Assembly (NCBI GenBank): GCA_950295325.1
Contig: OX485809.1
Span: 36,895,081-36,959,080, forward strand
From: Polytrichum commune
Taxonomy: Eukaryota; Streptophyta; Polytrichopsida; Polytrichales; Polytrichaceae
Length of the DNA stretch: 64,000 nt
Direction of reading: 5' to 3'
Within the stretch, counting starts at the first letter, position 1; every line of letters starts with the position of its first letter. This document shows, one piece after another, positions 24,173-46,097 of this stretch. A program made the translations under genes and the position numbers. The notes under the pieces are model-generated. The model did not search any database. It was given only the letters and a program-made list of their open reading frames with translations, and was not told where the DNA came from.

Positions 24173-24275
24173 CTGTGAACAACAACAACAACAACAACAA
24201 ACACAACCAAAAGGCATCCAAAAAAGGAATTAGAAATGTGATCCACATGGAAACAAACAAATACACGGTGGCAAT

Positions 24276-25047: not shown

Positions 25048-25665
25048 CTGTGATTAACAATTTAACTAATTCAATGATATGATCCAATAAATAAATAAAG
25101 ATTGCATTAAGGTAAAAGACGAGGGAGCGAGGGTTTAGAGTGCAATGCGAATGCGCTCAGAGGCACACTTCCAAACGCGCGTTCGTGAATGAGGGTTGCG
25201 GGTGGCGGCGCGCGTCATTTACGAACGTTCGTGAATGAGTGAGATTACAGGCACAATATACGAACGCTCGTTCGTGAAGGAGGTGGACACGGGGTCGCAC
25301 ACATTTACGAACGAGCATTCGTGATTGAGGAAGGGGCATGCAAGAGTTTATAGAAACGCCAGACCATTCACAACACAGGGATTGAATAGACGATGCACAA
25401 AATTGGGAAAATCCGATGCAGAGATAAATTGCTCATATATTAAATCCGTTGCATATTTACAAATGTCTCACGTGATCATCTATCACAATTTCCGTGTTCT
25501 ACAAAATTGTCCTACAAAACTGGCAGGCCTAGGGTGTCACGCAGAAAAGGCTCGCGCGGCCCTCGTGATGCCGCCGGACATGAAGCGCCAATAACAAACG
25601 AAGGGGGGTTAGTTGGTTACGAACGCGCGTTCGTAAAATGAGAGGTATTCTCAGAGATGAGTTAC
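25048..25665. repeat. Outer-family palindrome cluster in an intron (TTACGAACG-NN-CGTTCGTAA)
   Basis: The 618-bp intron between 25666 and 25047 holds a perfect 20-bp copy at 25617-25636 (core CG), a near-perfect one at 25305-25324 (core AG), another at about 25259-25277 (core CT), a shortened ACGAACGTTCGT at 25221-25232, and a half-decayed copy near 25173-25190. Further copies sit in exons at 23907-23926, 25725-25740 and 46141-46156. Confidence 0.85.
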
Positions 25666-26048
25666 CTCGTCATCGGGGGGAGGGGCAGCGGCGCTGGACC
25701 GAGCAGTTCCCTCCTCTTCGATTAACGAACGCGCGTTCGTAACCTCCATCGGAGCAGCTGCCTCTGCCTCCATGGCCTCTAGTGCATGGCCCGCCTGGGA
25801 CGCCTGGGTCTGTTCGATGAGATCCGCTTCGTCTTCGTCCCCACCCAGGTCGAGAGTCTCCATACGGACATCCTCCATCCGCGCGGAAGGATGCTGACCA
25901 TGCTCAGGGCTCTCAACATCCATGCATGCGATACATGCCGCGTCATTGGGGCTCCCCTGCGTGTCCTCCACAATGAGCATGTCAGTGTGTTCCGCAGTGT
26001 CATCGCCCCTCCTAGCAACTACCATATCTGCAATTGAGGGCAGTCCTA
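25666..26048 (-). pseudogene. Outer element main gene, exon part left of the inner insertion
   Basis: This is the downstream half of an exon cut by the inner element. It reads IADMVVARRGDDTAEHTDMLIVEDTQG and an acidic Ala/Glu-rich linker, and ends at a donor GACGAG|GTAACT at 25666. The inner-element gene has the same exon end (GGCGAG|GTAATA at 28919). The other half lies at 46098-48057; reading from 46098 directly into 26044 keeps one frame (PSRVG then LPSIADMV). A palindrome at 25725-25740 is translated as part of VTNARSLI. Residues are low-complexity and probably disordered. Confidence 0.75.
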
Positions 26049-26590
26049 AACACTATATTCGTTAAATTGAGACTTTTTGGGCATTTTGAGACATTCACAG
26101 AAATAAGAACAAGGATAAATGGAACACATATTGGAGAAAGTTGTAAGATGCGAACACTTTGAAGCGGGTGTTTAGAACAAGAACCCCGTTAATAACTCAA
26201 TATTTGGGATTGTTTAGGGTGGGCAATCCAAAACCTTAGGCCAAGTTCAAGGGGAAATCTTAAAACATTCATATTATCGCACAAAAACTTGTATGAATAT
26301 GGTTTAGGTAGGGCAATCCAAACCATAGATCATATTGAAGGGGAAATATGTGAACCAATATAATATAACATACAAAATATTCCAAACTCATATTTGTGAT
26401 GGTTTAGGTAGGGCAATCCAAACCTTAGACCATATGGAAGGGGAAATCATGTGACACTTATATTATTGCAAAAAAAAAACATACAAAGAGTGGCATGTAA
26501 AATGCATAGCATGCTAACACAACACATCCATTGGATAGTGCGACCCAAAATGTTCTTGCCTATGGCCCAAAACCCTACGCCTACTATGGC
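26049..26590. repeat. Inner element left end with ~98-bp subterminal repeats
   Basis: After the 28-bp terminal repeat come three imperfect ~98-bp repeats between about 26205 and 26470, each with GGTTTAGGTAGGGCAATCC or a variant followed by AAACC and later AAGGGGAAAT. Subterminal repeats of this kind often serve as transposase-binding sites; here that is inference. Confidence 0.65.
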
Positions 26591-27013
26591 CTATCTAGCC
26601 TCGGAGACTACCTCTTTTTCTTTTGCTTCATTTTCTTTTGCTTCTTTTTCTTTTGCCTCTTTTTCTTTTGCCTCTTTTTCTTTTGCCTCTTTTTCTTTTG
26701 CCTCTTTTTCTTTTGCCTCTTTTTCTTTTGCCTCTTTTTCTTTTGCCTCTTTTTCTTTTGCCTCTTTTTCTTTTGCTGCGGCTTCTTTTGCTCGCATTGC
26801 TTCAACATTCCTGAAAATCTCCGCCCCGCGACTATAGCCATTCTTGGGGTGACCGCCATCAATAACACATTTTGGATTCCGTCGGCCGCCCGAATTATAC
26901 GACGAAGAATTCGAATACGATGAAGTGGACTGTCTTGCATTTCTGGTCATGGAGTAGAAACGCTCCAACTCGACGGACGCACTAGCCCGCATAGGTCTAT
27001 GGGTGGGAGCAAC
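26591..27013 (-). CDS. Inner element downstream gene, last exon with KEKEA repeat
   Basis: The exon starts at 27013 after GTTGCAG and stops at 26591. It encodes RNARQSTSSYSNSSSYNSGGRR, NGYSRGAEIFRNVEAMRAKEAA and then about ten copies of the hexapeptide KEKEAK from an 18-bp tandem repeat (about 26620-26780). That run predicts a long, highly charged helix. It is paralogous to 23244-23558, which lacks the expansion. Function unknown. Confidence 0.5.
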   Translation of the reverse strand, partial: VAPTHRPMRASASVELERFYSMTRNARQSTSSYSNSSSYNSGGRRNPKCVIDGGHPKNGYSRGAEIFRNVEAMRAKEAAAKEKEAKEKEAKEKEAKEKEAKEKEAKEKEAKEKEAKEKEAKEKEAKENEAKEKEVVSEAR

Positions 27014-27145
27014 CTGCAACGCGTGAATGCAAGAACACACGTGTTAGTTTAGGGAGGAAGACCCAAACGTGTCACACGTTCATTTTTTAAGTGCCGGATG
27101 ATTGTAATGCGCGGTTAACCATGTTTTGGGGGGGGGGGGGTTCAC

Positions 27146-27500
27146 CTTGTCACCGGGGGCGTTCCCGTCGGAGTCGGCGAGGAGGGGCAATGCGTCCCGC
27201 AAAGGAATAGGAAGGGTGCCACTCTTCGTAGGCCAAGCGTCCATCCACAGCCGCCGTTGAGGTGTACTACTGCCGCCGGGCCGAGAGGGGGACGTCCAGA
27301 CGCATTTGCGATTTATGCCCTTGAGCGGCGACGGGGACAGAGATCGCCGGAAGATTTGCTTGGGTGGGGGGCTATCGACGACGCCGGCGTCAAGAGGCTC
27401 CTTGGAGTAGTCGATGGTGGACGCGGCATCGTAGACGGTCTCGTAGAAGAAGCTCCCCAAGTTTGATTCGCTGACGATCTCAATCGAGGGCTCCAAACGC
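27146..27500 (-). CDS. Inner element downstream gene, internal exon
   Basis: Bounded by a GCCATCAG acceptor (27501) and an AAG|GTGAAC donor (27145, next to a 12-G run). It encodes EIVSESNLGSFFYETVYDAAS, TIDYSKE, GVVDSPPPK and a basic Pro/Ser-rich tail. The exon upstream was not found: the preceding FCP1-like frame ends in a conserved stop, so this may be a second transcript starting inside the main gene, or an alternative splice form. Confidence 0.45.
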
Positions 27501-27618
27501 TGATGGCAAAATTAAAACAAACAAAACCCAAGGGGAGGGGGGCAGGGGGGGAGCATGAGAAAATCGATATACAATTGAGGCATACTATATCACACACAAT
27601 GGCACACCATGTAGTATC

Positions 27619-30600
27619 TCAAATGAGTTTATTATATTTCGCGTGAGCGTACAACTCTCTGTACATATAGTCCTTCGGATCCATGTATCTTTCGCCTATC
27701 GGATTACAACTAAGGAACTGGGGCACGGGTAGTCCGCTCCCCACGAGCGTTTGAATGTACTTAAGTAGGTCTAACAAAAAGCGGTCTCGGACCTTCTCGA
27801 CCGTCCACGTGGGGCAAACGATGAAGTTGGAGGTCGGGTTCAAAATGTTTTTGGAAGCGCTGTCGTCCACCATCAACGTGTTGTCACGGGTGGGGCGAAC
27901 GTCGTAGGGACAGCCGACCATGGTCGGACGCTGGTCCCATACGACTGGCTTCAAGACCTTAAGAAATTGGTTTACGGCGGGGTTGTTGGGCTTCTTCACA
28001 ACCCTGCCCTCAGGGGTGTACAATGTTTTACAAGAATCCTGTCCTAGGACCAAGCACGGGGGTTGGAGTCCCTTGAAGATGAACTCCACGACGGCCTGGG
28101 TATTCTCGGACTTCATGGAGCTCCAAATGATCACCCACCATTTGGATAGGGCGACCTGTAGGAAGCGCCGAAGCCACGGGCGGAGGTACACTAGCTTGCT
28201 TTTGATGTACGCGGGGGGTCCATCGTAGTTGGCGTCCTCGGGCTTGCAGAAAGGCACCGTTGGGACCCTCGGACAATGCACGCACTGGACAAGGACCCCG
28301 TTGAGGTCTAGCACCAGGAACCGGGTCTTGGGAGGCGAAGGTGGCGAGGGCAAAATCGGGGGGACCACCGCGCTGTCCTCCACACTCCTCAGAGAGGATC
28401 GGTGGGGAGCTGCGACGCTATGCTCCGAACCCTGCGGCGACGAGCGAGAAAAGGCGGCGAGGACTATGTTATGCTATGTCCATCTCAAGCAGAACGGGAA
28501 TTTTGTGCAAACACAAGAAGAATTGGACCATTGGTGGCAACAAAAACATACAAGGGAACAACATACATTGGGACACGGATGCAAACATATGGGCGCCAAA
28601 AATAATAATTTTATTTTTACAAATCTCTATATACAATTTGATTTGGGGGGGGGGGGCGTGGTGAACGAGGGCATTCACACTATCCTAATTCTACATCTAC
28701 AAAATTGGTTGCGCGCCGCCAAGGTCGAGCGTAGTCGAATGCAGGTGAGACGAAGGGGATCGCGGGGGGGCACGTTGGGGGGAGGGGGAGCAAGTGTAGA
28801 CCAGGGGGGCAGGGGGTGTGCATTTCCTCCTAGCAAGGGGGACACGACCACGCCAACAAGACAGTGACCCAGGAAGTTTGGGTCGGTCGACCCAAACTGG
28901 GAGGGCTCAATGTATTACCTCGCCCTGGTCATGTCTCGATGATGTGGAAGCCTCCACCGTCCCCGCTGCCCCGCCTCTCTCGCCACCGCCTTCTCCGACG
29001 ACGTCAGGAACCTTCTCCTGCAAACGATCGGCATCAGGCCCTTGTCCTAAACCAATCTCCGCATGTGCATCATGCATGGGTTCATCGATTTGGTTAGGAG
29101 TAGAGGTATCACCAGGCCCTTGCAGGCCTTCAACATCTAGCATGGCCGTGTCTAATTGACACCCATGTTGGTCAAGGGAGGACTGCGCTGCAACGGGGTT
29201 TGGGTCGCCCGACCCAAACTATCCTGCATCTGGAGAGGGCCCTTCGGACACTACAGTGGATGGTGGGTTTGGGTCGGTCGACCCAAACATCCTGGGGTCG
29301 TCCGATTGGTGGGGTGGCGCCATGACTATGGGGGGCCGAAGTGGTGGAGGGCCCAAAGGGGAGGAGGCTCCAGAGACGCGCCAGATGTTGGGGTCATCCA
29401 CTTGCTGGACCGGCGCGTATGGAACTTGGTGGGGCCGCATCAAGTGCTGAAAGAAGCTGAAAGACGATTGCGGCACAGGCTGCTGAGGGATGCTCTGCGG
29501 AGGGAAGCCGGGGGGCAAGTGCGGGAAGGAGCTGGAGGGAGCCACCACCAAACCTTGCGCCCACATTCCTTGTATCACTTGTGATATCAAGTCGGCGTGG
29601 GACGGAGGTTGGGCCATCGCCCTTTGACGCTCCTGCTCCAACAGGAGAGCCCTCAGCTCTGCGACCTCGTTCCGCATTGAGGGTTCTTCCGCGGCAGCCT
29701 TCTGCAGGCGGACTCGCTGCTCCTCGTCCCTCCTCATCTTCTCGTTCGCCTCCTCCACAGTCAGGACCTCGGGCTTCACCCTAACCATGCCAGCGAACGC
29801 TGTCGGGGACGGGGGATCTGATCTTAGCCGTTTGGCGAGCTCAATGTCATCGTCGTCCTCGCTACTTATGGCAATGGTCTCCTCCACGGAGTAGTCGCCA
29901 TACAGCTTCTTCCCCTTTAACTTCCTCCTCTCCCTGAACGTCGCGGTGGCGTCCCTGGAGTACATGTCCCGTGCATCGTCCACAGTCAGGACGGGCACGA
30001 GCTTACTCTGCGGGGTTGCCGCCCGCATCGCCTTCTTCCGTTGAGGGGCTTCGGATTGTTGCGTGAAGCCCGTTGCCCCTTTCTCGACGTCGCCTTCCTT
30101 CTCCGCCTCCTCGTGTTCCTCTTCTTCCTTCTCCTCCTCCTCAACCTCGCCACCTTCTGTGCGGGACGGATTGCCCGGATGCAACCCGACCAGAGGTTCG
30201 GAAACTTGGGTCGTGGCCCTCATGGCCATTTCCTCCGGGTTGATGCGCCTCACCCTATCAAGAGGGTTTTCGCCACCCTGAACAACCTCGTCGATGTAGC
30301 TACCCGGGATCCAATCGAGGATGTCCATCTTCTTCGCCAACGATTTCTGCACCCTGTAAAATGGCAGATCGCCATCCTCTATGTAGGAGTATATATTCAG
30401 CCCCGACATCTACACAATCCAAGTTATAGGGAAATTAGAATTTGTCGAGGCAATCACATAAACAAGACTAAGTGAAATGTGTAGTTTGGGTCGGTCGACC
30501 CAAACCTGCAAAGAGCCTAGTTTGGGTCGATCGACCCAAACTGCTTACGAGCTATAGAAAGTCACTTACCATGGCAGCATAGACAGGTTTTGAGCCTCCG

Positions 30601-33495
30601 AAGACGTTGAAGATGCAGTCCCCTCTCCTCATCAGCGTCCTCATCATTCTCATGTAAAATTCCATCCGCAGCTCATCTGCAGGATAGTTCGCGTATTTAG
30701 CCTCGTCGTAGAGGCACTTGTTCGCACCCAACCCTTCTGGAACTTGGAAGAGTTTGTCCATCCGGGATATAGGGTGGTTTGGCACCTTCAGCAACTCCGT
30801 TTTGTACACGAAGTACAAACACAAGACGTTGACGAACTTGGTCTTCTTGTCCCTCAACGTCGTGTAAGCTCCCTCCGCCGGTGCGGCGATGTAATGAGAC
30901 TTGGAGACTGCATACTCCGGCTGCAGTTTCCGGACAAGCTCGTACACCTGCTCCGCCCTTCTATCCTCGACTATCCAAAGCCAGATATCTACCTCCCTGA
31001 ACTTAGGGCTTGTATAATCGACGAACTTAGTTAAGAAGGGGTCATAGAAGAGGGTGCTCATCGTGCCCTCAAATGAGCTTCCAGGAATATTTCTAAAATC
31101 AATCATCCCAAAAGGAAAGCGGTCCCTTGCTTTCGTCCTTATCGCCATTCTGGCGTCTTGACCTGGCCAGCCCTGAATTTTCAAAGGCTCGAAGGTGACA
31201 AGGTTGAAGTAAGCGTCCCCTTCAAACTGGACAATCTTCTTCTCCTTGATGAAGTTCGAGAACGCACGCGCTGTGTGATCCGGAAGCGCCCGGTTCTTCC
31301 CACCCTTCACCATCTTGGCCCGCAAGAAGTCGTCCCCCGCTTCCCTTATTAGAGCCGCCATGGAGGCACTAGTGAATTTATATTCATCTTTGAATGCTCT
31401 CCAGTTAGCCCCATGAACCTCGCCGTCCACGACAATATTCCTCTCTGGCACCAATTTATGCAGCTCTTGCACGATAGTCGTCTTCTTTTTCCTGTTCTCC
31501 GTCCATTCCTTCATGGTGTAGCATGAAGGAACGAAGGATTTGGGCTTTACGAAGACAATCTTCGGGTGCACCCAGCACCTCTTGGCCGTGGGTGCCACGT
31601 GCAGGATGTGCGATGCCGCCTTCTCCACCTCCGTCTCTGACAGCCCTTGAAGAGTTCTAAAGAACTCTCTCACGAGAGGCTTCATCTGCTTGAAGCGCGA
31701 GGCCAGGCTGAAGAAAGCGCCAGTATCAGGATCGATCAAATCCCCCGTCTCGTGCTTTTCAAACACGGTTTTCCACTTCCTCCAAACTGAGTCCGATGCT
31801 GTAATCAAGTAAATCTCCCCCTTCAGGTCGCTGTATTTCTTCTGCTTGTGGCTCGAATTATCAATGGAGGAGAATTTGTTGATCATTTGGTATTTGAAAT
31901 CCTGCACGTGAACAAAACAGAACATTTGAATGCGTGTTAGTTAAGTACATGTGATTTCCAAACCATATCATGACCAACATCTACAACAAGAGTTTGGGTC
32001 GGTCGACCCAAACTGAAAAAAAACACAAGACTGCAACAGTTGTTTGGGTCGATCGACCCAAACTAAAAAAACACAAGACTGCAACAGTTGTTTGGGTCGA
32101 TCGACCCAAACTTAAAAAAAACACAAGACTGCACCAGGAGTTTGGGTCGGTCGACCCAAACAATACTCACCTCCCACTTGGGATTCTTGTCCTTCGCATT
32201 CTCCCTCTCCTTGGGAGGCCTACCATAGAACTCCCACACCTCCCGCGAGGCCATGATATTCCTTATCCAGGAAGCTTGGTAGGCCCTCTTCTTGTTTCCC
32301 ATATTGAAGTACCGGGAGATGTCGCTGAGCTTGGTCTCGTCGTCAGACCACACCACCAGTGCCTTCCAAACCTTCAGCTTTTCCTTCTGATTGTTGGGAT
32401 CGTCCCACTCATTCATGAGTTGGATTTTCTTGGATGCCTCCACGCTGTGTTGGCCGTCTATCAGCCAAAAATCGCCCTTCTGAATTGTTGGCCACATTTC
32501 AGGTGTAGGCATTTTCTTGAGACCCTGTGGCATCACTACAATCGTTTGCCTGTCGTCTTTAAACTGCTCGCAAATGATCTGCGCGATTATCCAGTCAACG
32601 TAGGCGTCCTCCTTTGCCCGGACACACTTCTCCGGTGGCGCTAGATGGCACTGGCTGATGTTCACGTCGAACTTGAAATCCCTGCCCATGAAAAAACAGT
32701 GGGAGCATTTCGTCGTGAAATTGTTCACGATTTTCTGCAGCTCCCCTGCATCCACCTCTTCGCCGGGCTTCAGCATGCGCAACTCCGGTGAGACTGGCTC
32801 GTCAGTCATCACAGATGACTCTCTCGCCCTCTTGGATGGAGTTGTTTGACGGCTCCCAGAAGGTGTAGGGGTCTCACTATTCGTAGGTGTTTGGGAGGGA
32901 GTGGTCCTACGCGAGTCAGCCAGTACTGGTAGCGGCATCCTCACCGATTGAGGTCTTGACGACCCTGCTCCTTCCTCTGTGGGAGCTTTCCGCCTCACAG
33001 GTTGCTGTGATTTGGTTTTGCTTTGCAGGCCCCTGTTCAGCACGGTTATTGCATGTTTTAGTTTTGTGAACCGGCTTGAGACCTTGGTATTCGATGTACT
33101 CCCATCGATAAATATTGTCTCCGGCTTGATAACTTCCGGTTCGACACAGGACTCTCTTGCATAGAGTGCGTCGAAAGGCTCGGAGAACTGGTGCATGAAC
33201 ATATGCGCGTTCTGCACAGCCGAGTTCTCGAGGATGACGTCGGTATAGTCTCCAAGAGACTGTACCGATGCGACCTCCCATCCCGTAAGAGTCGCCCAGG
33301 TGTGTTTCTCCACGGTTCCCACCTTGACAACAAAAATCATTTTGTATGTTGAGGCTTTGACTACTTGAATAGACCAAGCGAGGACAAGCCCGTCCTTAGG
33401 GGAATAGGAGTCATCCTGCGGGGTTTCGTGCTCCTGCCACAACATGTCCGGCGCAGGCATGAACCACCTTTCGCCGGGTCTTTCTTTGGAGCCAT
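27619..33495 (-). CDS. Inner element main gene: ParB-like + methyltransferase-like + linker + FCP1-like HAD (spliced)
   Basis: Exons in gene order are 33495-32171, 31901-30570, 30409-28919 and 28431-27619; all joins are GT-AG and phase 0. Exon A has WPTIQKGDFWLIDGQHSVEASKK (32400-32470), a DGQHR/ParB-Srx-like motif with Ser for Arg. Exon B resembles a beta-order methyltransferase: IWLWIVEDRRAEQVYELV, KFVNVLCLYFVYKTE, then GDCIFNVFGGSKPVYAA where the FxGxG SAM loop would be, so it is probably catalytically dead. Exon C starts SGLNIYSYIEDGDLPFY, followed by Glu-rich, coiled-coil and Pro/Gln-rich sequence. Exon D is an FCP1-like HAD domain (FLVLDLNGVLV, VIIWSSMKSENTQ, LMVDDSASK), ending NKLI-stop. 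One in-frame TAG at 29219-29221 abuts a palindrome. The first exon is not identified (acceptor TTACAG at 33496). About 1,650 codons are visible. That all four exons form one gene is supported by the outer paralogue. Confidence 0.7.
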
Positions 33496-33976
33496 CTGTA
33501 AGAAAATAATGTGCAAGGTTAGTTTCGGTCGTTCGACCCAAACATCTACGACATGAATAGGTTTAGGTGGATTGTGTATTTATATATTTCAGCATCATTT
33601 GTAATGATAATAAGAATGTTGTGATTATTGGGTGGATTTGCATTTTATATTGTTTGTGACATGCAGGATTCCTTGATACTTTTCCTTGATGCATTCATTG
33701 ATTATTATTTTGGGTTGATGTGAATTTTATATTGATGCAAAAATCATGGATTTCTTTATGAGTTTATAATTAGAAGACTTAGTTTGGGTCGTTCGACCCA
33801 AACATGATGCTTTGTGTTATATTTTGGTCGTTCGGCCCAAACATGATGCTTTGTTTTGTGTTTGGGTCGAGCGACCCAAACAAGGGGCTGTGTTTGGGTC
33901 GGTTGACCCAAACAAGAGGCTATGTTTGGGTCGGTCGACCCATACAAGAGGTTGTGTTTGGGTCGTCTCCCCAAAC
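28877..33976. repeat. Inner-family 20-bp palindromes in introns, exon and upstream of the main gene
   Basis: Copies of TTTGGGTCG-NN-CGACCCAAA occur at 28877-28896 (core GT), 29199-29218 (CC, in exon), 29268-29287 (GT, in exon), 30485-30504 (GT), 30521-30540 (AT), 31993-32012 (GT), 32043-32062 (AT), 32091-32110 (AT), 32141-32160 (GT), 33783-33802 (TT), 33861-33880 (AG), 33893-33912 (one arm mismatch) and 33925-33944 (one mismatch). Decayed copies lie at about 33523-33542, 33822-33841 and 33957-33976. Every intron of the main gene contains at least one. Confidence 0.95.
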
Positions 33977-34199
33977 AGTATTATTTTAATATATTTTTTA
34001 AACTTGGCATCTAGCATATACAATGCTTATGCATTGTGTATGCTACAAAACCGTGAATATACAAACACATATTGGTTAAAATAAAACACAATACCTTTCA
34101 AAGATGTTGTGCAGACAATTTGGAGTAGAGCAGGTTGTTCTTCCAATAATTCTCAATATCAACAAACTGTGAGAAAGTTCAATGAGAAACTTTCAAACA

Positions 34200-34505
34200 A
34201 GTATCAACTCTCTCAAATAGCTCTTGGATCTCTCAACCAACTCCTGAATCTCACACAGAACTACTGAATCTCTCAAAAGACTTCGAAATGTCTAAACCAA
34301 CTCCTGAATCTCACACACAACTACTAAACCTCTCAAAAGCCTTCGAAATGTCCAAACCAACTCCTGAATCTCACACACAACTACTAAACCTCTCAAAAGA
34401 CTTCGAAATGTCTAAACCCACTCCTGAATCCCTCACAAAACTACTGAATCTCTCAAACGACTTCGAAAACTCTCAAACAACTCTTGATACTCTTAAAGAA
34501 CTCTT
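34200..34505. repeat. 60-bp tandem repeat, about five copies
   Basis: Units start every 60 bp (for example CTACT(G/A)AATCTCTCAAA at 34261, 34321, 34381 and 34441) and themselves contain ~20-bp sub-repeats of the type ACTCCTGAATCTCACA. On the plus strand they read as a 20-residue peptide repeat, but no gene context supports translation. They lie upstream of the main minus-strand gene. Confidence 0.8.
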
Positions 34506-37500
34506 GAATTTCACAAGCACTCCTAAAACTTCTAGTACAAACACCTGGACCTCCCAAACCGAAGCTTTATCTACTACCGAATGTTCTACTAACTTCCTTC
34601 AGCACTTTCCAATACTCTTCAACACTCTTTTGCTAACTTCCTTCACTCTCACGCTCTAAAACCTTCCTCCGTATGTTTCTGTTTCTTTCAAAACTCTTCC
34701 TAACTTCTAAGATTGCACAAGGGCTATTCTATTGAAGAGCAAAAGAAAGGAGGGAAAAGAAGATGCAGAAGAAAGCAATGAACGCGGGAGAATGAAGGGT
34801 TAACCTACACCAAGCCTGATTCGCCGCGGCGCTTCAGGAGAGGCGGCGCTTCCAAGCGAGGCGCGGAGAGAGAGAGAGAGAGAAAGAAATGAGAAATGTG
34901 ACGGTTGGGGTTTTGTTTACCTCGGGCATTGGCCCCCAACCGCATGAATAGGGTGCCCATAGGATTAGGGCACCCACGGAAACAGGGTTACAGGGAACCC
35001 TAAAACCTAAATCATAACGCTTGACTCTAAACCCTTAGCGGGCCTACCTCTTTAAGAGTACATAGGCTATTTGCCTCATAGCATAGGTTGCATTCTACAA
35101 TATCAACTTTTTGTAAGTTGAAAACCTTTTGAATTTGTAAGTTCCTCGCCAATTGCCTCAAAACTAAATTTTAGTAGGTTAAAATCCTTCATATCTTTTA
35201 ATGTTGTAGGTTTTAAAATCAAAATTTGAGTACTAAGTGGGATCCTTCAAGTTGGCAGGAATTGAACCTGGCTAAGCCTTTCACCACGTTTGAAGGCCAA
35301 GGATTAACCAAGTCTTTTTTAAAGAGTTGATTATAAGTTTTGAAAGGTTGCTAAAATTCAAATGAGTTTAAGGGTGAAAGTTCTCACCATGTTCTCATTC
35401 AACCTCTACTCTTCCTGCAAGATATAGCCTAAAGATATGTACTTAGGCCAACTAATTTCCCAATTTGAAGAAGGATGAATGGCTAAAATCCTTTCTTTTA
35501 AAAAAAATTTAGGCAAAATTTCCTAAATGTTTTTATCACATAGGTTGATATCCTATGTTTTTAAATTGTCCATAGGCTCTTTGTCCTACACTTTCAAAAT
35601 TTTATAGGCTAAGTCACTAATTTTGTAGGCTGCATTTGTTTTAATCGGTATATTCGTTAATTTGGGATTTTTTTTGGCATTTTGAGAAAGTTACAAATAT
35701 AAGAACATGGATAAAATCGCACGTACATTGGAGAATGTTGTAAGATGCAAATACTTTGAAGCGGGTGTTCATATCAAGAACGCAATTAAGATCTCATATG
35801 AAGATGGTTTAGGTACGACGACCCAAACATTACACTATGTTGTTGTGGTCCATATATTAATTTGAGAGAAGAGAAAATCTCAAATTAGCGAATTTTAGGG
35901 TTTAGGTTCTTTTGGACCCTGCTCTAAACCCTTATTAGTTTTTTCAAAAGAACTATGGAGTACCCTAAGGTGCTACATAAAATGTGTTATTCTACAAAAC
36001 TAACCATTTATATAGCCAGCGCATTCTTACAACAAAACTTTATGCTAAACTAATACTTATCCCCTACTTACATGACACCATACCCTAAATTTTCCAAAAT
36101 CATTGAAGGCATTGGTTTCTCTTTTATTTGAGCATATTAGAAAATTTAAACCATATAATTGCGTTATATTTAACGATGTAACCATTCACATTTAGTCCTT
36201 ACCAATGATGCCAACAATTCACACGATATTGAATGAAAAAAAAAAGATTACCCACACCCCCCAACATGTGGAACAATTTAGAATAATTGAGTGTGGAGCC
36301 TAATAAATGAATACCTTCCCCAACTGCATTTTGCAAGGGTTTTGAAATGCACGATCCTTATTTGAAAATGCGAACATGCTCAAGTTTTAAGTACATCCCT
36401 TAGATCGTGACTTTCACGAATCACATAGTCGCCAATAAATCATGGTTCATGATTTATTTAATATATAGATTGTGATATAAGAGTAAATGGGATAAGCACA
36501 ACATCAAATGAAGCCATTCAAGCAATCATGTTGTTATTCCCTGTTCCTTCCATGTATATTAGATGATGGCGCAAGATAAAATAGATGTTGTTTGTATATG
36601 GGGGCATCAGTGAACCACAACTACATTTGGTGTTTAGGGTTTAGGAGATAGGAGATAGGAGATAGGAGATAGGGTTATAACATATTAATCTATCCAATGT
36701 CAATGTATAACATTGTCTTACTCGTGAGAAGAGTCTTATAGGAAGGTTATAGTGAAGACGATGTTGATTATGTTAATTTGTTATTCGAGACGTTTAAACG
36801 CGATATATTGATTGGTCGTGTGTTTATTCAAATAACATGAAATATTGTGGATGTTAATAGGGGCTAGGGGTCCAACTTTGGATGTTTCGCTCACTTTAGG
36901 GAATCACATATTAGTCGCTAATAAACCATCATTCATGATGTATTTAATATATGGAATGTCATGTAAAAGTAAATCGGAGAAGCACAACATCATGTTGTTA
37001 TTCATTGTTCTCTCCACGTGTATTAGATAATGGAGGAAGATATAACAGATATTGTTTGCATAATATGAAGAAGAGTCTAATCGGAAGGTCATAGTAAATA
37101 CAATCTTGATCATGTTAATATGTTATATGGGACGTTTAAACATGATATCCTAATTGGTTTTGTATTTAGTCAATGCGTATTTCATGTTGTGGATGTTATA
37201 AGGGTTTAGGGTCCAATCTTGGATGTTTTGCTCTCACACATTAGTAAACTTGAAGTGAACTTGAGGATGGATTCAAGTAACATTAAAAGATTGAACTAGA
37301 AAGGGACATTGGTAGTTAGTATCCCCTTAACAACGTCCACATACGTTCGTCATTGCCACTCTTGCATGCGAGATAATAGAGCAAGGTTCTAGGGTTTAGG
37401 GTTTAGGGGGGACAAATAAATAATTCTATTCATCATGACAATGGCCTCAAGCCTTGGAAACTCTCTCATAATTGCAGCCTCCAAATGGCCCAAACCCCAC

Positions 37501-37800
37501 CTAAATAGGTTTACACTTGAAAGCATTGAATGGAGTTGTGTTTGGGTCTACATATTGGTTAAAATATACCTTGATGATACTTGAAAAAATTAATGTGGCC
37601 GCCACCCTTCCTCCCAATGGCGTATGTCATATCCACACAAAACAAAACAAATAGATTAAATAACATAGACTAAGTCATATGACGGCTGGGGTATCAGAGG
37701 GGCATTGATAGATGCGCATTTTTCTACTATAAACAGAAAACGGGGAATTCTGTCAGGAGGTTTGAAATAACCTCTGCAAGAGAAGAAGGCGGGGAAGGCA
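34506..37800. other. Inner element central non-coding region
   Basis: No gene recognised. It holds a GA dinucleotide run at about 34866-34885, a short deletion derivative at 35643-35902, a heptamer run GGAGATA at about 36645-36673, and short telomere-like GGGTTTAGGG pieces at about 36640 and 37390. A diverged duplication also lies here: 36410-36905 is repeated with deletions at 36900-37250, for example TGTGGATGTTA at 36847 and 37190. Confidence 0.5.
35643..35902. mobile_element. Short non-autonomous derivative of the inner/outer element family (~260 bp)
   Basis: Its left half (TATATTCGTTAATTTGGGA ... GGCATTTTGAGA ... TATAAGAACATGGATAAA ... GAAGCGGGTGTT) follows the inner element's left end at 26053-26175. 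Its right end (GGTCCATATATTAATTTGAG ... TCTCAAATTAGCGAAT) follows 46040-46085. It contains one degenerate 9-2-9 palindrome at 35808-35827. This is the expected form of a MITE made by internal deletion. Ends are diverged and no target duplication is clear. Confidence 0.7.
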
Positions 37801-37835
37801 TCCAATGACTAAGTCTGGGAAGCGGAGGTGGATAG

Positions 37836-37842
37836 TATAAAG
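37836..37842 (+). promoter_or_regulatory. Candidate TATA box for the transposase transcript
   Basis: TATAAAG is followed about 25-35 bp later by a pyrimidine-rich CTCTTCTCCC stretch typical of plant start sites. If used, the palindrome array would lie in the 5' leader or a leader intron of the transposase gene. Inference only. Confidence 0.3.
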
Positions 37843-38147
37843 GGGCGCACCCCCCAAAAGTCGGTCTTTTTTTTCTCTTCTCCCGCTGTCGAATTCGTAG
37901 AGAGAACTCTTAGTAGGAGCTGTACTTCAAGGTTCGTGCATGCTACCGTTCATGAGCACTTATCCATAGCATGCAAGTTCATGAGCACCTATCCACACCA
38001 TGCAAGCCCACCTTGAACTTTGCAATGAGCTCAAATTCAACACACCACGCAATATCCGCCGCATTATACGCCGGATTTTGTGGTGTACTTGGGCGAACCT
38101 TCACCTTTACACTAGTGTTGGCGGGTTTTGAGTCTGACCCTATGAGG

Positions 38148-39102
38148 TTTGGGTCGACCGACCCAAACCTGTCCACTAGTGTGTTAGGGTTTATGTCTGA
38201 CCCTTAACATGTTTGGGTCGGTCGACCCAAACCCCAACCCCAGTGTGTTAGGATTTTTATCTGACCCTTATCAGGTTTGGGTCGACCGACCCAAACCTGT
38301 CCACTAGTGTGTTAGGGTTTATGTCTGACCCTTGTGAGGTTTGGGTCGGTCGACCCAAACCCCTACCCCAGTGTCTTAGGGTTTTTTTCCTGACCCTTAT
38401 CAGGTTTGGGTCGACCGACCCAAACCACTACATGGTGTGGGTGGATGTACTCTTGTGAGGTTTGGGTCGGTCGACCCAAACCCCTACCCCCAGTGTGTTA
38501 GGGTTTTTTCCTGACCCTTATCAGGTTTGGGTCGACCGACCCAAACCCCTACGTGGTGTGGGTGGATGTACCCTTGTGAGGTTTGCAAATCCCTACTCCA
38601 GTGTGTTAGGGTTTTTTTCTGACCCTTGTCAGGTTTGGGTCGACCAACCCAAACCACTACCTGGTGTGGGTGGATGCACCTTTGTGAGGTTTGGGTCGGT
38701 CGACCCAAACCCCTACCCCCAGTGTCTTAGGGTTTTTTCCTGACCCTTATCAGGTTTGGGTCGACCGACCCAAACCCCTACGTGGTGTGGGTGGATGTAC
38801 CCTTGTGAGGTTTGCAAACCCCTACTCCAGTGTATTAGGGTTTTTTTCTGACCCTTGTCAGGTTTGGGTCGACTGACCCAAACCACTACCTGGTGTGGGT
38901 GGATGCACCCTTGTGAGGTTTGGGTCGGTCGACCCAAACCCCTACCCCCAGTGTCTTAGGGTTTTTTCCTGACCCTTATCAGGTTTGGGTCGACCGACCC
39001 AAACCCCTACGTGGTGTGGGTGGATGTACCCTTGTGAGGTTTGCAAACCCCTACTCCAATGTGTTAGGGTTTTTTTCTGACCCTTGTCAGGTTTGGGTCG
39101 GC
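38148..39102. repeat. Palindrome array, left part, with a 229-bp higher-order repeat
   Basis: Copies of the 20-bp inverted repeat alternate between core AC and core GT at 38148, 38212, 38276, 38340, 38405, 38461, 38526, 38634, 38690, 38755, 38863, 38919 and 38984, spaced 56-109 bp. From 38461 the pattern has a 229-bp period (38461, 38690, 38919). In each of these longer units one site is reduced to TTTGCAAA (38582, 38811 and 39040). Spacers carry AGTGTGTTAGGGTTTTTT and GGTGTGGGTGGATG(T/C)ACCC. Confidence 0.95.
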
Positions 39103-41941
39103 TGTGAACCCTTTGAGTGGTCCACCACTCTGCGGGATCACTTTTAGTTAGAATGTTAGCATTAAAAGTTAGAATTGATAGGGAATTTAGGGAAAATTAG
39201 TTCATTTAGCATTTAGCCTAGAAGAAGGAAGGTCAAAATGAAACTAAGTAGTGCTAGAAGATAGCAAAGTAGAAAACATATGCTAGCTAGTAAAAACAAC
39301 TAGCTAAGCAAATATTAGTAGATGCTAGTTATTAAGCAATTGTTAGTAGATGCTAGCTAAGCAAGTGTTAGTTTATTAGTTAGTGTGAGGCACACAAGAC
39401 TATTGGAGGTGTTTTACGTAAGAAGATAAAATCGGCGTGAAGAATTTTGAAGACAAAAAAGAAAGAGAGCAAGGGGGATACTTGCCCACTTGCCCCCTTG
39501 CCAACTCGATGGCGGAAAAATTAGAAAGATTTCTAAAGGTTTTTTGTCGGAGCCACCTCGGCGAGAGGGTGGCAACCTCAACCGGGAAAACCCCCGAGCC
39601 AAAATTTCGGGAAAGGGTTTGAAAAATGGATCCGGTGGAGGAGGGGTCCAACCCTTTTGTGAGAGGGTTTAAAAACCCCTCCTTCCACCTTGTAGCTCTC
39701 TCTCTTTCTCTAGTTTTTGGGCGAAGCCCTGCTTCAATGTAGTTAGGAAAAAATCCTTTAGCATGTATTCTCAATGGTCTAAAAGAAAGGCTTGAGAACC
39801 TCCTCTACTTTCTCTCTCCTAGTTAGGTTGTGTGTTTATTAACACACCAACAAAATTATTCCTTCTTTTGTAGAGGTAGGTTGGATGGTAGAGTTTTGAG
39901 TAGAGGCATTATAGACCTCATCTGCCAATGCCCTGAAGGCTTAGTTCAAAAGCTAGAACAAGATACTTATCATTTTTCTCTTAGAGAGATTTCATATAGC
40001 TATCCATAGCCGTTTCCCATTTGTGATTTGGTTGAGATGACAATTAGTTATGGATTTTCAAAGATGGAGTAGAAAAACTGGGTGGTCTTGTGGGTAGCGG
40101 CTGCTGGATCAGACCTGCGAGCCCAATAGGAATTTTAATTCCAAGAAATTATATTTTTCCCAAGTAGAACTTTTGTGTAGCTTTCCAAAATGGCTTAGAA
40201 CATTTGATTTGAGCATGATTTGAATTAGATATGAATTGTGCAAGATGGGACACATAGTTTGAGAACTTTTGGTTGACTGCTGCATTACAGAGGACCTGCT
40301 GGGTTCACTTCGGCTTACCTTTCTAATCAAATATTTTTATCAAATACATCTTTTTAATATCTCTCCAGGGTCGTATAGAACGTTTGATTTGACTAAGATT
40401 TGAATTAGATATGAATTGTTGAAGGCGAGATACATAGTTTAAGCCTTCTTGATTGACTGCTGTGTTACAAGGAGTCCGCTGAATTTCTATTAGCTTAACC
40501 TGCTGATGTCATAATTTTTCTAGTTAGAGCTTGTTCATAGCTTTCCAATGGTATAAGGAAAGCCTAGATCCAAGTAGTAAGGAATGTGCTATGAATTTTT
40601 GAAGTTAGAAGGTAGATAGGTGGGTTGGAAGGGCCGGTTGAATCGACCTCACACTTCCAACCCTCATAACTTTTGCATTTCTTATCCGATTAGAGTGATT
40701 TTTAGATCATTGGAAAGATAATTTGGTGCACTAAGTATAAATATTATGCTTAGGATTAAATTACAGGGCAGAATAACACTTTATATTTTAATTGTTAACT
40801 AAGGTACGCTTACTACCAAACTAGTTACAAAGAAGGAGGCAAGGTCGACGCTCGGAAAGTGGAGCAAGGAAGGAGGTAGCGGCTCGGCCTACATCAAGCC
40901 CAAATCAACCGAGGAAAATTGAGGTAAATTAACTAACCTTAAGCCTTCCATTTAGGATTGGAGGGAGCACGGCTAAGGTACGCATTTCTAAACCCACTCA
41001 CCTATCTCGTAAGGTCAAGTGGCTTGACCACTTGACCGCCAAGGGAGTATCCAATTCCATTGTTTTCGGGGCCCTTGGTATGTTTTGTGGTAGTAGCTTC
41101 ATTTATTAGCAAGTTTCGTGTGTGGTAAGTCGGATTAATCACCGACACGACCACTCTGAATGTTGTTGGTGGAAAGGTGGGGTTAATGACCCGCGAATCC
41201 ACTATTATGTTGTTGGCCCCATAGATTGGGAGTAATGGCCCCAATTTATGAAGATTGCGCAACAGGTTGAACCTACAGGTCGCCCGTCACCCTGGTCCCA
41301 TTGAGTTGCATTTCGTGGTCTATCCAGTGTAAACACATTTAACAATCAAAACATACAAAATAAATCGTAAACCCTTGTTGGCAAGAGACCCGAGGTAAGG
41401 GGTGATGCCTAATATGTTAATGTAGTGAGTTAGGACGTGCAAACAAAAGTAAGTAATTAAGAAGGAATTTGTGTGAAGGGTGGGACTTAGGCCAAGTTCC
41501 CCCGCTTAGAAAACTAAATAGAACTAAATAAATAAATAGGAAGAATTGAATGGTCCATCAAATTGTCGTTATTCCGTTCGTTGAGTTAGGGTGGTATGAG
41601 TCACACCCGGTTGGGTGTATCAGAACCATCCCAATTCACAAATTAGGATTGCCTTGGTTTCAAGGCTGGTGCGTCTGCGCGTAGAATAGGTTGTAGGTTA
41701 AGGTTAGAACTAGATATGAAATTGGTTAGTGGAGTTTAAAGCCACACTAGTAAAAAACTAAGGCCTAACCTCCGGAGGTACTACGACGCATATTTAATCT
41801 CCCTTAAAAATCTAACTACTCACGTTATACACCTATCATCCGGGTTCGGCTTGGGCGCCTGCAAATGCAGGCCACCTTCACCGAAGGGCTTGTGTGATAC
41901 TTTTAGGCTCCCTCGAAAGGGGGTGGCCCAAAAGTACCACA
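39103..41941 (+). mobile_element. Solo LTR, 2,839 bp, copy 2, inserted in a palindrome core
   Basis: It starts TGTGAACCCTTTGAG and ends AAAGTACCACA, and is flanked by the direct duplication TCGGC (39098-39102 and 41942-41946). It is the reverse complement of 10061-12899, of identical length and with only scattered differences. Rejoining the flanks restores TTTGGGTCGGCCGACCCAAA, a perfect 20-bp palindrome of the inner family with core GC. Gene-free. Confidence 0.95.
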
Positions 41942-42317
41942 TCGGCCGACCCAAACCACTACCTGGTGTGGGTGAATGCACCGTTGTGAGGTTTGGGTCG
42001 GTCGACCCAAACCCCTACCCCAGTGTGTTAGGGTTTTTTTGTCTGACCCTTGTCAGGTTTGGGTCGACCGACCCAAACCCCTACCTGGTGTAGGTGGATG
42101 CACCCTTGTGAGGTTTGGGTCGGTCGATCCAAACCCCTACCCCAGTGTCTTAGGGTTTTTTCCTGACCCTTATGAGGTTTGGGTCGACCGACCCAAACCC
42201 CTACCTGGTGTGGGTGGATGCACTCTTGTAAGGTTTGGGTCGGTCGACCCAAACCCCTACCCCAGTGTGTTAGGGGTTCAGTCCGACCCTTATGAGGATT
42301 GGGCCGGTCGACCCAAA
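41942..42317. repeat. Palindrome array, right part
   Basis: Continuation of the array: 41992-42011 (GT), 42058-42077 (AC), 42114-42133 (one mismatch), 42178-42197 (AC), 42234-42253 (GT) and a decayed copy at 42298-42317. The array ends about 180 bp before the transposase reading frame. Confidence 0.95.
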
Positions 42318-42494
42318 CCCGCACCAAAATAATTTCTGGAACTTGTTTTGGACTTGCACACAGTGTTGGGAGTTCACATTGTAGTTGTGTTGGAAATGTC
42401 TTCATCCTCGGTGTCCCCATTGATCATGGTGTCTTGCATTTTCCGATATTTGATTCTTTTGGACCCTTACATTCTTTCCATGTGTGTAGGTGCA

Positions 42495-45400
42495 ATGGAG
42501 GGAGTTGGTGGAAGAGGGGATTCCTTCTCTGACGACATGGGCAACACCCAATCTACGTCTGGGGATGAGCTAGACATTGTTGGGGAGGATAGTTTTGATG
42601 ACAGTGCAGATGAAGGTGACTTAGGGAGTCCTTCGCCATCTGCCCCTTCTTGCCCCACTATGGAATGTGCTGGGCTTTCACGAGCTTTATGGGTGAATTT
42701 GGATGTAGTACTTGTTAATGACAGTGGAGTTGCTGTGGCGGAGGGTATTTGTCGTAACACACATCCATAAGATTGCATTGATGAAAACCCCCTTGGCACC
42801 GAGGACGTTGGAGTTGTTATATTGGAATCACTCGTACATTCTGAAGTGAATCCAACTCATAGGTTCTCGTTGCGAAGGTGGCCGTTGAAGAATGTGACAA
42901 TTGATGGGGTTAATTTGCATGAGCATGAGCGACGACACATCCAAATCCAAGAAGAGCTCCAAGCAAACATTCGGCCACGCAAAGGCCTACGGAAGTACGA
43001 TACATTGGCACGTCCTACTCCGTCTGCAAATGAGTGTAAACGTCAAAGGTTGCTTTGTGAGGAGTCCATTAGAGAAGTTGCCACAAAGGATTGTTGTGTA
43101 CATCGTTGTTGCCAATTGTTCCCAAGGGATAAATTGAAGGCCATCCGCGAGGAAATGTGGCTTGGAGATTTCCGTCTAAGATCCACCAAAAAGCTTGATG
43201 TCCATAGGGCGGTACATGTGAACGGAGCGGGTCGCAAGGTCATCACCCTTGAGAGCATAGACGTGTGTTGTACCGCATGGTACATCATTCACGGTGTGTC
43301 GAAAGCGGAATTTTATAGACAAACCGCGTATGCCAAGGAAGGCCGCCGGTCCCGTCACCATGGGAATACGGGCTTAAAGAAACCAAGGGAAGCAACGAGA
43401 CAAGCAACCGCCACTCTGGCAACCATCATTGTCCCCCTTGCCAATGCAATGCCGCACAAAACACGCACACTCGCAACCGGTGAAAAGGTTGTGGAGAAGG
43501 TTCTTCCTACAGGCACGAAATGGAAAGACATATTGTTGGACGTAAACGCAGTTGGCGAGAAGGCTGGGTTGGACCCTATTTCGTTGTCGAAACTGAGTGC
43601 AATAAAAAAATCTCACTTTAGCGAATACATCACAAAAAGACGAGGCGACAAATTTGCCCGTTGTTCCAAATGCGAGAAGTTGAAACGCCTTCGAGATGCA
43701 CACACGATGGGGACAGAATCCTATGCCGCACATCAAATGAACTATTTCAAGCATGTGAACATGCAAGAGGCACACCGTAATGATTACTACACAAATAGAG
43801 CTTTGTCCATCTCTAGGCCTTCGGAGGTCCTTACAATCATCCATGACAAAATGGACCATGCCAAAATAGCCTCACCATGTTTTGCAAATCGAATCAAAGC
43901 CACGGATGGCCTTTTTAAGCTTCCTGTATCGGTTACAGGTGATTTTGATAACAATTGCATTGCATTACCTAAACACAAATTTGTGCTTTAGGTTTGTACT
44001 TGGGGCCATAGATGTACACCATGTGAATTTTTTGGTGTTATAGTTGAATATTAAACCATTGGGTTGGCTTTACAGGGATGATTGCACATGGATATGGTGA
44101 TGTCAAGTATGCTCATTATGCTCTTGATTTGTATCCGGCGGATTCAAACCACACGATAGGGTCATTTGCAAAGCTTTTACGTGATTTGGAGAAACCGCCG
44201 TCCTATTCATCAAGATTGTTATTTGAAAACTCGGGATCAACACCTCTATATGAAGCGGTCTTGGATGGAAGAGATGTATGCGTGCACTCCTTGCCGGAGC
44301 CACGAAGTGAAGATGTGATTGCCAAGAATTTGCCCCCAACTCTGCGTGTCCAATTGGACAATTGTGCGAAGGACAATAAAAGTAGATATGTTTTTGCATA
44401 TTGGTCGTTGTTGGTTGCGAAAGGCATTTTCAAGGAGGTTTTTGTGTCCTTTCTATTGGTAGGCCACACGCACGACGATATCGATGCATCTTTTGGGCGG
44501 TGGAGCATGAAGTTGCGCGAGGAGGATTTTCCGACAATCCCATTGTTGATGAAGTCGTACATGGATTTGGAGAACATTCCCGTCATCCCCCATATGATCG
44601 AGGAGGTTCCAGACTTCAAGGCATTTATAGAACCGTATATTCGAAGCGGAGCTCACCGATTGATCGGACATACGAAGGCACAACAATTTCGGTTCTACGT
44701 GCGTGACGATGGTGTCCCCGCCATGCAATACAAGTTGTTGTGCACGTCACAAGACTGGAGCCCGCCGGAGGGTCTCCTTGTATGGCGTGTTGATGGGGAG
44801 GGAAGGACGATGTTGCCTGACGGAGAGCCTAAGCCTTGCAAACCAATAGTAATGAAGAATTTGGAGGACATTTATAAAGGCATATCAGGCTTCATACAAT
44901 ATTGGGAGAGTTTGAGGGTAGCGGATGTTGGTGGATCGTGTTGGCTTCGTTACGGAAGTTGGATACAATATTGGACACGTGTTCGTGGTGCTTTGGCAAA
45001 CCTTCATCAAGATACACCCCTTACTTTAAGGCATGGGTTTTGGCCACAAACTCGTGTCAATGTACAAGCTTCGGAGGCTAGTCTTTTGGGAAATGGAGAG
45101 GTTCGAGAGGAATTTGATGTGGACGACCATTACGTGGGGCCTGCTAGTAGTCGTCCGCCACCATCTTTCCGCATTGCAGTGGATTGTCATGAAGGTTATA
45201 TGCTCATTTTGCGTCCTGGAGATGAGACATATGCAAAGCCAGTGTGGGTGGCAAGAGCTTTGTCCAAACCAAATTTTGTAACTTCCAGCCCTCATTTTCG
45301 ACAAATACAAGTAGAGTACTACCGACCGACAGCACAGAATGAAGATGTTGTTCGGCATTATACAGGCTGGGATACAAACCAACACTTTCGGTGGAAGGTG

Positions 45401-45562
45401 GATTCTGAGCACGGTCCATCTTGGGTAGATACAGATTCCATATTCATAGCATGGAAACCACGGAAAAATCATAGTGGATCAGTGTCCATCCCTCAAAAGT
45501 ACATAACTTTTGCAAAAGACAACCTTGCTCGGATCGCAGAAGAAGCAACCCACGTTGAATGA
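42495..45562 (+). CDS. DUF7869-like DDE/RNase H-type transposase of the inner element (one premature stop)
   Basis: Exon 1 is 42495-43938 (donor ACAG|GTGATT) and exon 2 is 44076-45562 (acceptor TTTACAG); the phases fit (G|GG). The acidic N-terminus is followed by ENPLGTEDVGVVILESL, a Cys-rich block (CCVHRCCQLF), WKDILLDVNAV, SLSKLSAIKKSHF, RCSKCEKLKRL and IIHDKMDHAK. Exon 2 has LPPTLRVQLDNCAKDNKSRYV and FLLVGHTHDDIDASFGRWS; these carry candidate catalytic acidic residues in the order seen in DUF7869 proteins. The C-terminus (GYMLILRPGDETYAKPVWVA ... VEYYRP ... FIAWKPR) resembles a small chromatin-reader-like beta fold, but weakly. A TAA at 42768-42770 interrupts an otherwise continuous frame, so this copy is inactive unless the stop is read through or the start is downstream. 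It is the only transposase candidate in the 20-kb element. Confidence 0.7.
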
Positions 45563-46093
45563 GAAGTTGGTAGGATTGTGTTAGCATGATTATAGTGTAA
45601 TATGTAATTCGACGAATATATATTACTCATATGTGTTCTCCTCAAACTTGGGGCAAAGTTTGGGTAGAACTTGCGAATGCTATATTGTTTGGGGTTGGAT
45701 GAATATCCATTTACTATATTTCAATACAGTTGTGAAGTTCATTTTTTTATTAAGTTTGGGACTAAATTGTCCATTGAAGAAAAATGCATTTATTGCATGC
45801 ACTTTGTATGTTGCAATGTCTATATTTTATTGACCATGCTAATAATAGAAATCATTTTATATGTTTTTTGGGTGAAACTAGTTTGGAGTGCTCTACCCAA
45901 AGTGTTTTTGTTGATGAAGTTGGTGTTGAGTGCTCTACCATATGTGCTTATGTCCACACATAATAGATTTGGGATATTAGAACATATAATATATTTGAGA
46001 TTGTTCGCAATATAGTTTCGGAACACGGAATGTTGTTTGATCCATATATTAATTTGAGACTAGAGAAAGTCTCAATTTAACGAATATAGTGTT
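45563..46093. repeat. Inner element right end
   Basis: Non-coding end with the 28-bp terminal repeat (46066-46093). Just inside it, TTTGAGAC...GTCTCAA forms a small hairpin with the terminus. Confidence 0.8.
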
Positions 46094-46097
46094 CCTA

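Follow-up and report, generated by a model that had tools for sequence, protein, structure and literature searches.

A giant transposon family of the moss Polytrichum commune, probably Sola-like, with a conserved cargo gene and lineage-specific palindromes

A stretch of 64,000 nucleotides from Polytrichum commune (assembly GCA_950295325.1, contig OX485809.1, positions 36,895,081 to 36,959,080; hereafter the window) holds at 26049..46093 a 20,045-bp element, in which a reading of the sequence alone had recognized a DNA transposon with a DUF7869-like transposase and a cargo gene. This locus raises the question of what kind of transposon it is, and what its cargo gene has to do with the long palindromes that crowd its introns and the regions ahead of both genes. 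We lean towards the view that it represents an autonomous-type, Sola-like cut-and-paste family of about 17 kb, moved by the DUF7869 transposase, whose cargo gene encodes a regulator that reads the palindromes and probably counters silencing.

Ends, copies and transposase

The left (26049..26076, plus strand) and right (46066..46093, minus strand) terminal inverted repeats of the window copy are perfect over 28 bp and are flanked by the target site duplication CCTA (26045..26048 and 46094..46097), exactly where the sequence-only reading had put them. A paralogous empty site was found in a relative on contig C1 (L052, L053; the second lineage-II copy described below), in which the flanks are contiguous and contain a single CCTA. 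The 20-bp terminus occurs exactly twice in the window, and once more, at 22870, with 2 mismatches (mean in shuffled sequences 0.01). In the entire host genome (G000; 408 Mb, 64 contigs, the window being located on C7) it has 1,518 matches with at most 2 mismatches (755 + 763) vs 4 (2 + 2) for the reversed control pattern; part of the matches with 2 mismatches are expected to be ends of a sister lineage, because the left end of that lineage differs from the terminus at two positions. Contig C1, for which 97 exact ends are listed (apparently all), exhibits 37 convergent (+/-) pairs of neighboring ends less than 60 kb apart, as opposed to 1 divergent and 7 same-strand pairs; the median length of the convergent pairs is 17,410 bp and 21 of them fall into the range of 14–19 kb. 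Twenty-two of the 37, picked mainly by size, were examined (14 whole, 7 by their ends only, 1 from the first listing), which together with the window element gives a sample of 23. Perfect 4-bp duplications, with 19 distinct sequences, flank 21 of these 23 pairs, E6 and E23 being the ones without; the 21 include six of the seven long pairs (29–44 kb, examined by ends), which presumably are elements holding nested insertions. E5 and E20 are internal-deletion derivatives. A search of viral contigs with the 20-mer and two of the proteins gave no confirmed locus.

The length of 20,045 bp claimed by the sequence-only reading is correct for the window copy and atypical of the family: about 2.84 kb (near 39,101–41,941) is missing from the close relative E2 (16,952 bp), hence the typical size of about 17 kb. 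A short sequence, AACACTTTATATTTTAATTG, is present with its flanks twice in the window, at 11227 (minus strand) and at 40775 (plus strand), the latter within the stretch missing from E2. A diverged left-end-like sequence at 35644 could be a relic of an earlier fusion or a nested end; the possibility that the 20 kb correspond to two fused elements was rejected, as E2 aligns across this site, shares the outer ends and has a duplication of its own.

The transposase is encoded on the plus strand by three frames: T0 (42333..42767), a fast-evolving N-terminal part, T1 (42771..43988), and T2 (44048..45559, in the open frame 44048–45562), which comprises most of the DUF7869 domain (PF25273, E-value 6.4e-42). 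They can be inferred to form a single gene whose intron separates T1 from T2. T0 and T1 are separated in the window copy by an in-frame stop (42768..42770, plus strand), and the 11 other copies that were examined all read a sense codon there; with its transposase broken, the window copy could therefore move only with help from other copies. In the host genome, the best 85 of 1,869 candidate places for DUF7869 (the window included) are all at least 97% identical, and 70 of these 85 are free of stops. Among the matches listed on C1, 12 of 13 are followed by an exact terminus 533–537 bp past the frame, and the same linkage recurs in the sister lineage. Thus, the sequence-only reading, which had staked its case on further copies with the same ends and 4-bp duplications and on their constant association with one transposase, was contradicted on neither count. 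The family is one of giant, recently active DNA transposons, marked by its exact ends, the 4-bp duplications, the linked DUF7869 protein and the cargo, and it supplies a context (ends, duplications, cargo) for the orphan domain DUF7869.

Which superfamily could it belong to? Among the 120 homologs of DUF7869 listed, the four that carry a species name come from the mosses Ceratodon purpureus and Physcomitrium patens. In an alignment of 50 homologs, D295 is conserved in 45, D298 in 47 (the rest gaps), D420 in 50, D460 in 49 and D462 in 50, and these invariant or near-invariant aspartates suggest a DDD triad. The family most likely belongs to the Sola superfamily, a placement made by comparison with published descriptions. 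In their available text, PMC10741241 and PMC9033089 describe Sola elements with 4-bp duplications, a DDD transposase, variable ends and, in some cases, a length above 15 kb, known from the moss Physcomitrella; 4-bp duplications are likewise given for Sola2 in the accessible part of PMC3627910, and the 28-bp inverted repeats lie within the Sola range of 11–1124 bp quoted in the available text of PMC10741241. The sequence-only reading had been unable to name a matching superfamily and suspected an undescribed family of giant transposons. The view that it forms a new superfamily, distinct from Sola, keeps some ground, as a sequence comparison of DUF7869 with solved structures gave no match, the domain is not mentioned in the literature searched (which most subscription papers lie outside) and Sola was compared by description only; nonetheless we consider it rather unlikely, since the duplication length, the DDD-like aspartates, the moss homologs, the large size and the variable ends all fit the Sola descriptions as far as these sources give them.

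A Chapaev or CACTA (CMC) element would be a very improbable identification. Duplications of 3–4 bp are reported for Chapaev (PMC4079192, available text) and the letters CACTA appear at base 3 of the terminus, but Chapaev termini are said in the same text to be invariably CAC..GTG, while here they read AACAC..GTGTT. A CAC..GTG terminus is excluded because the duplication lies directly outside the AA, as it does in 21 of the 23 pairs, and the CACTA letters, which the sequence-only reading counted among the features at odds with every superfamily it could name, are probably incidental. Moreover, none of the 50 homologs has C(2)C or H(3-4)H in the interval from D420 to D462, with the last catalytic residue taken according to our own assignment. 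CACTA/EnSpm was rejected by its 3-bp duplications and CACTA/CACTG at the very terminus, and Ginger by its 5'-TG..CA-3' termini (both according to the available text of PMC10741241), compared with AACAC here.

The cargo gene and its palindromes

The cargo gene lies on the minus strand, and its exons and introns were inferred from open frames. Exon A (32066..33562, a 499-aa open frame that contains WLIDGQHSVEA) and exon B (30555..31940, 462 aa, with a faint resemblance to DNA methylase motif I) belong to no consistent database family and have many environmental homologs; exon C (29222..30409, 396 aa) belongs to no database family; exon D (27622..28473) exhibits a NIF/dullard-like HAD phosphatase domain (PF03031, E-value 1.1e-13). 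Further downstream are exon E (27083..27511), a conserved open frame under weaker constraint, and the open frame F (26594..27043), which contains lysine-glutamate-rich repeats and whose coding status is doubtful, with nonsynonymous divergence (dN) exceeding synonymous divergence (dS) in nearly all pairs. Exons A–D are matched in 12 of 12 other elements above 10 kb examined, albeit with B and C truncated and D frame-shifted in E10, and B frame-shifted in E2 and E15; E23 lacks the transposase. The dN/dS ratio of A–D, T1 and T2 is 0.04–0.22 wherever dS is computable and above 0.2 (exon A 0.04–0.16 in the computed pairs, with three exon-A pairs saturated), the ratios of near-identical pairs being unstable and in some cases above 1. 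As judged from these ratios, the cargo gene is under purifying selection; its recurrence in all 12 elements shows that it belongs to the transposon, as the sequence-only reading had it.

HAD phosphatases usually have the signature DxDx(T/V). At this place exon D reads DLNG, so the domain may not be a working phosphatase. A ParB/DGQH-like reading of exon A, made by eye from WLIDGQHSVEA, and a methylase-like reading of exon B, based on GDCIFNVFGGSKPVYAAM, received no consistent support from Pfam, PDB and NCBIfam and were rejected, the latter being kept as a hint only: hhalign aligned the exon-B profile with motif I of E. coli YhdJ (P-value 0.024, probability 2%), and gave a P-value of 0.44 for one unrelated control, DusB. 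A fungal KDZ/TET-type cargo was dismissed as well, as no such domain appears among the Pfam hits.

The cargo gene is accompanied by a 22-bp palindrome, GTTTGGGTCGNNCGACCCAAAC, which occurs in 13 of 13 full-size elements in 16–40 copies each (at most 2 mismatches; 10–31 exact), and which is absent, even with 3 mismatches allowed, from the remaining 44 kb of the window. In the window copy it is located between the cargo exons D/C and C/B (28876..30541), in an array with a 50-bp unit at the B/A intron (31992..32161), at the beginning of the cargo gene and ahead of it (33522..33945), in an array within the central non-coding region (38147..39004), and in another one directly upstream of the transposase gene (41991..42318). 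This placement recurs in the family: each of the three intervals separating exons A to D holds the palindrome (except that E10 has lost the C/B place through a deletion), 12 of 13 elements have it ahead of the cargo gene, and all 12 full-size elements that possess a transposase gene have an array ahead of that gene. The genome contains 9,231 exact sites vs 0 for the reversed pattern; among the first 100 sites listed, 36 belong to E1 and 25 to E2, both bounded by inverted repeats, and 16 follow a lone exact left end. A comparison of the B/A intron in six elements revealed a nearly constant palindrome amid spacers whose sequence and unit length vary between subfamilies, although part of this constancy arises by construction, the sites having been picked at no more than 2 mismatches.

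Three degenerate palindromes (4–6 mismatches) at 26212..26423, in the left subterminal region, are possible transposase sites. The window copy, E3, E13 and E20 each have five degenerate subterminal copies on the left side and a single one on the right, E5 has three and one, and 20 simulated left regions have none. Those at 26212–26423 and 45881–45902 are mostly retained in both deletion derivatives. Perhaps they are ancestral sites of the transposase.

A second lineage with its own palindrome

The window element (lineage I) is inserted inside a larger related element with the same gene order (lineage II). The left end of the latter, with 2 mismatches, is at 22870..22897 (plus strand), preceded by the duplication CCAA (22866–22869); its cargo exons F, E and D (23247..25014, minus strand, 40–48% amino acid identity) are found on one side of the window element, and a remnant of exon C (47321..47740, minus strand, 26% identity, E-value 2e-4) on the other. 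As related cargo exons flank the window element, the right end of the outer element was predicted to lie beyond the window, and was indeed found in the adjoining 13.9 kb at coordinate 76142 (C7:36971222), with the same CCAA duplication. The outer element spans 53,273 bp including insertions, with exons B and A and the transposase beyond the window. Between the lineages, amino acid identity is 64–66% in the transposase frames, 34–48% in the cargo exons and 26% in exon C.

Lineage II exhibits a different palindrome, TTACGAACGNNCGTTCGTAA, located in the window at 23907..25742, again at 46139–46158, and also beyond. The window and its extension contain 34 sites (at most 4 mismatches), compared with 0–1 in 10 Markov-simulated sequences, and these occupy slots that match those of GTTTGGGTCGNNCGACCCAAAC in lineage I. 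A second lineage-II copy contains the cargo exons A, B, D, E and F and 30 sites of TTACGAACGNNCGTTCGTAA (at most 3 mismatches) together with no type I site. Genome-wide there are 3,737 exact sites vs 0 for the reversed pattern, and type I and type II clusters stay separate throughout the range of C1 common to both listings. Traces of both palindromes were found even in environmental homologs: type I was recognized in the read-through tails of 13 of the 55 exon-B and 15 of the 40 exon-A proteins (65–83% identical to the window), and type II in those of 5 of the 55 exon-B proteins (37–38% identical); some other tails resemble, by eye, further palindrome variants. Neither type was detected in the 120 DUF7869 proteins listed.

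Subfamilies differ more at synonymous sites the farther a frame lies from the ends of the element. Comparison of the window copy with E3, E10, E13, E14, E15 and E19 (all of other subfamilies; exons where compared) gave dS values that increase from the left end inward, from 0.12–0.20 in E to 0.64–0.74 in D, 1.12–1.23 in C, 1.6–2.1 in B and 1.9–3.2 in A (values above about 1 being close to saturation), and from the right end inward, from 0.27–0.30 in T2 to 0.40–0.45 in T1 and 0.56–0.76 in T0. In the central non-coding part there is no match longer than 250 bp between subfamilies except for an inverted 369 bp in E3, E14 and E19. E7 (L015-L016) is chimeric, with a transposase near that of the window (dS 0.05–0.06) and the cargo of a distant other subfamily. 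The simplest reading of these divergences is that repeated exchange between lineages would keep the ends and the transposase common.

The neighborhood contains further elements. At 47800–64100 of the window, the outer element appears to hold a third giant insertion, which comprises 234-bp repeats bearing the palindrome GGGGTGCCGTTAACGGCACCCC (19 sites at no more than 4 mismatches), a 790-aa frame (50178–52547, minus strand) that looks transposase-like by eye, and a frame (61453–62241) with a methylase-like motif I and a weak hit to PF01555 (E-value 0.063); a search for its boundaries (about 47.8–64.1 kb) gave no convincing pair of ends. A right terminus, ATCACTATATTCGTTAATC, at coordinate 77100 (L050), 958 bp past the outer right end, perhaps marks another related element. 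At 230–1843 of the window, DUF4218 (E-value 1.8e-31) and DUF4216 (E-value 1.8e-4) domains were identified, a combination that we take to be typical of a CACTA-type element of plants.

A possible palindrome-reading regulator and its parallels

How could these parts work together? The anatomy, i.e. the ends, the duplications and their linkage to the protein, supports cut-and-paste transposition by the DUF7869 transposase, which, with a predicted DDD-type catalysis, would act on the 28-bp inverted ends and leave the 4-bp duplications. The palindromes are best explained, by analogy, as sites of a dimeric regulator encoded by the element; its favorite source is the cargo gene, with the N-terminal part of the transposase as the main rival. 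The multi-exon cargo gene would encode, or help to encode, this sequence-specific regulator of the element itself, which would bind the 22-bp palindromes as a symmetric complex in the cargo introns and ahead of both genes, and would sustain the activity of both, probably by opposing silencing by the host in the way that VANC acts for VANDAL. Regulator and palindrome would change together, each lineage recognizing its own copies alone. VANDAL is another transposon group, of the Mutator type. According to the available text of PMC5735166, and of PMC10398659 for the same pattern, VANC motifs are repeated in tandem within introns and ahead of the transposase gene, and vary from family to family. 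Here, element-specific arrays were found both upstream of the transposase gene and in introns (the latter as inferred from open frames), and the motif differs between related lineages, in two of them at the DNA level and also in the homolog tails. A more tentative proposal, which we would rate below an even chance, is that these giant Sola-like elements represent a second, independently evolved, sequence-specific system of self-recognition (anti-silencing) among plant transposons, in which the cargo protein reads a lineage-private palindrome of 20–22 bp within the element's introns and promoters, the two co-diversify, and repeated exchange between lineages keeps the ends and the transposase young.

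Several observations weigh against a palindrome-reading cargo regulator. Exons A, B and C gave no DNA-binding domain, the hits there being weak and scattered over one or two members, and the reader could be the variable N-terminal part of the transposase or a host factor. In the cargo, the stretches compared contain stops in 9 of 13 rows (exon A), 2 of 10 (B), 5 of 12 (C) and 2 of 12 (D), which may represent intron read-through or decay, and constraint is weaker in exon E (dN/dS about 0.26–0.75) and T0 (0.3–0.7). Some palindromes extend into open frames: 4 of the 33 in the window reach into the ends of frames A and C, where the frames probably continue into introns, though these palindromes could be coding, and exons A and B of the outer element share one open frame with two TTACGAACGNNCGTTCGTAA palindromes between them, which could be coding as well. 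E13 lacks a palindrome directly upstream of the cargo gene, and E5 and E20 have none at up to 2 mismatches and yet are flanked by 4-bp duplications, an objection that would lose weight if their deletions arose after insertion, as they could have. Finally, 23 of the first 100 GTTTGGGTCGNNCGACCCAAAC sites listed are in clusters with no exact ends nearby, exon C and the transposase were not found in the 15.2 kb examined of the second lineage-II copy, and the comparison of palindromes at the DNA level covers two lineages.

Or perhaps it is the transposase itself that binds the palindromes, through its T0 part, with the sites serving as internal enhancers of transposition or in autorepression and the cargo doing other work? 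The array directly upstream of the transposase gene would suit this idea, as would the faster divergence of T0 than of T1 and T2 at the amino acid level, and the degenerate subterminal palindromes, retained and unmatched in the simulated left regions, would agree with a descent of the motif from terminal sites. On the other hand, the strong sites are concentrated in the cargo introns and stay clear of the termini, deletion derivatives that lack palindromes carry duplications, and in VANDAL the intron pattern goes together with a separate protein (PMC5735166, available text); we consider this explanation unlikely, if deserving of attention. Even more doubtful is that no protein of the element reads the palindromes, which would instead serve a host factor or be a short selfish repeat propagated through slippage and gene conversion. 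The arrays do vary between copies in unit length and copy number, as repeat turnover would cause, and there are the clustered sites with no exact ends nearby, but 20 bases are conserved almost exactly while the spacers change, within the window the motif is confined to this element, and matching slots are taken by a motif specific to the lineage.

As far as our literature search showed, VANC is the worked-out plant case of a transposon-encoded, sequence-specific anti-silencing protein, and the literature searched on Sola, giant transposons of mosses and other bryophytes, palindromes and anti-silencing (most subscription papers lying outside its reach) contained no element like the present one. 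If our interpretation is true, an unrelated giant transposon with lineage-private palindromes in the same places would indicate that such systems arise repeatedly, and pairs of a DNA-reading protein and its palindrome would be available as ready-made tools. Among the known systems, the Sola1 group of Physcomitrella shares with the present family the 4-bp duplications, the moss host, short variable inverted ends, in some members a size above 15 kb and, if the triad predicted here is real, a DDD-type transposase, but its descriptions, as far as the available text of PMC10741241 and PMC9033089 goes, mention neither a conserved multi-exon cargo nor lineage-specific palindrome arrays. The giant CACTA/EnSpm elements of plants are also longer than 10 kb and have short inverted ends, but differ in their 3-bp duplications and the CACTA/CACTG at the very end (PMC10741241, available text), and have a transposase of another family. 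Fungal transposons with TET/JBP genes, as described in the available text of PMC12730594, likewise are DNA transposons that carry an additional gene believed to act against silencing, but have other transposases, duplications and cargo, and no TET/JBP domain is among the Pfam hits here. A parallel in layout is VANDAL/VANC of Arabidopsis, where tandem arrays of a short, element-specific and family-dependent motif lie inside introns and ahead of the transposase gene (PMC5735166, available text), compared to which the moss elements have a long palindrome as the motif and a phosphatase-like cargo exon D, and would counter silencing by analogy.

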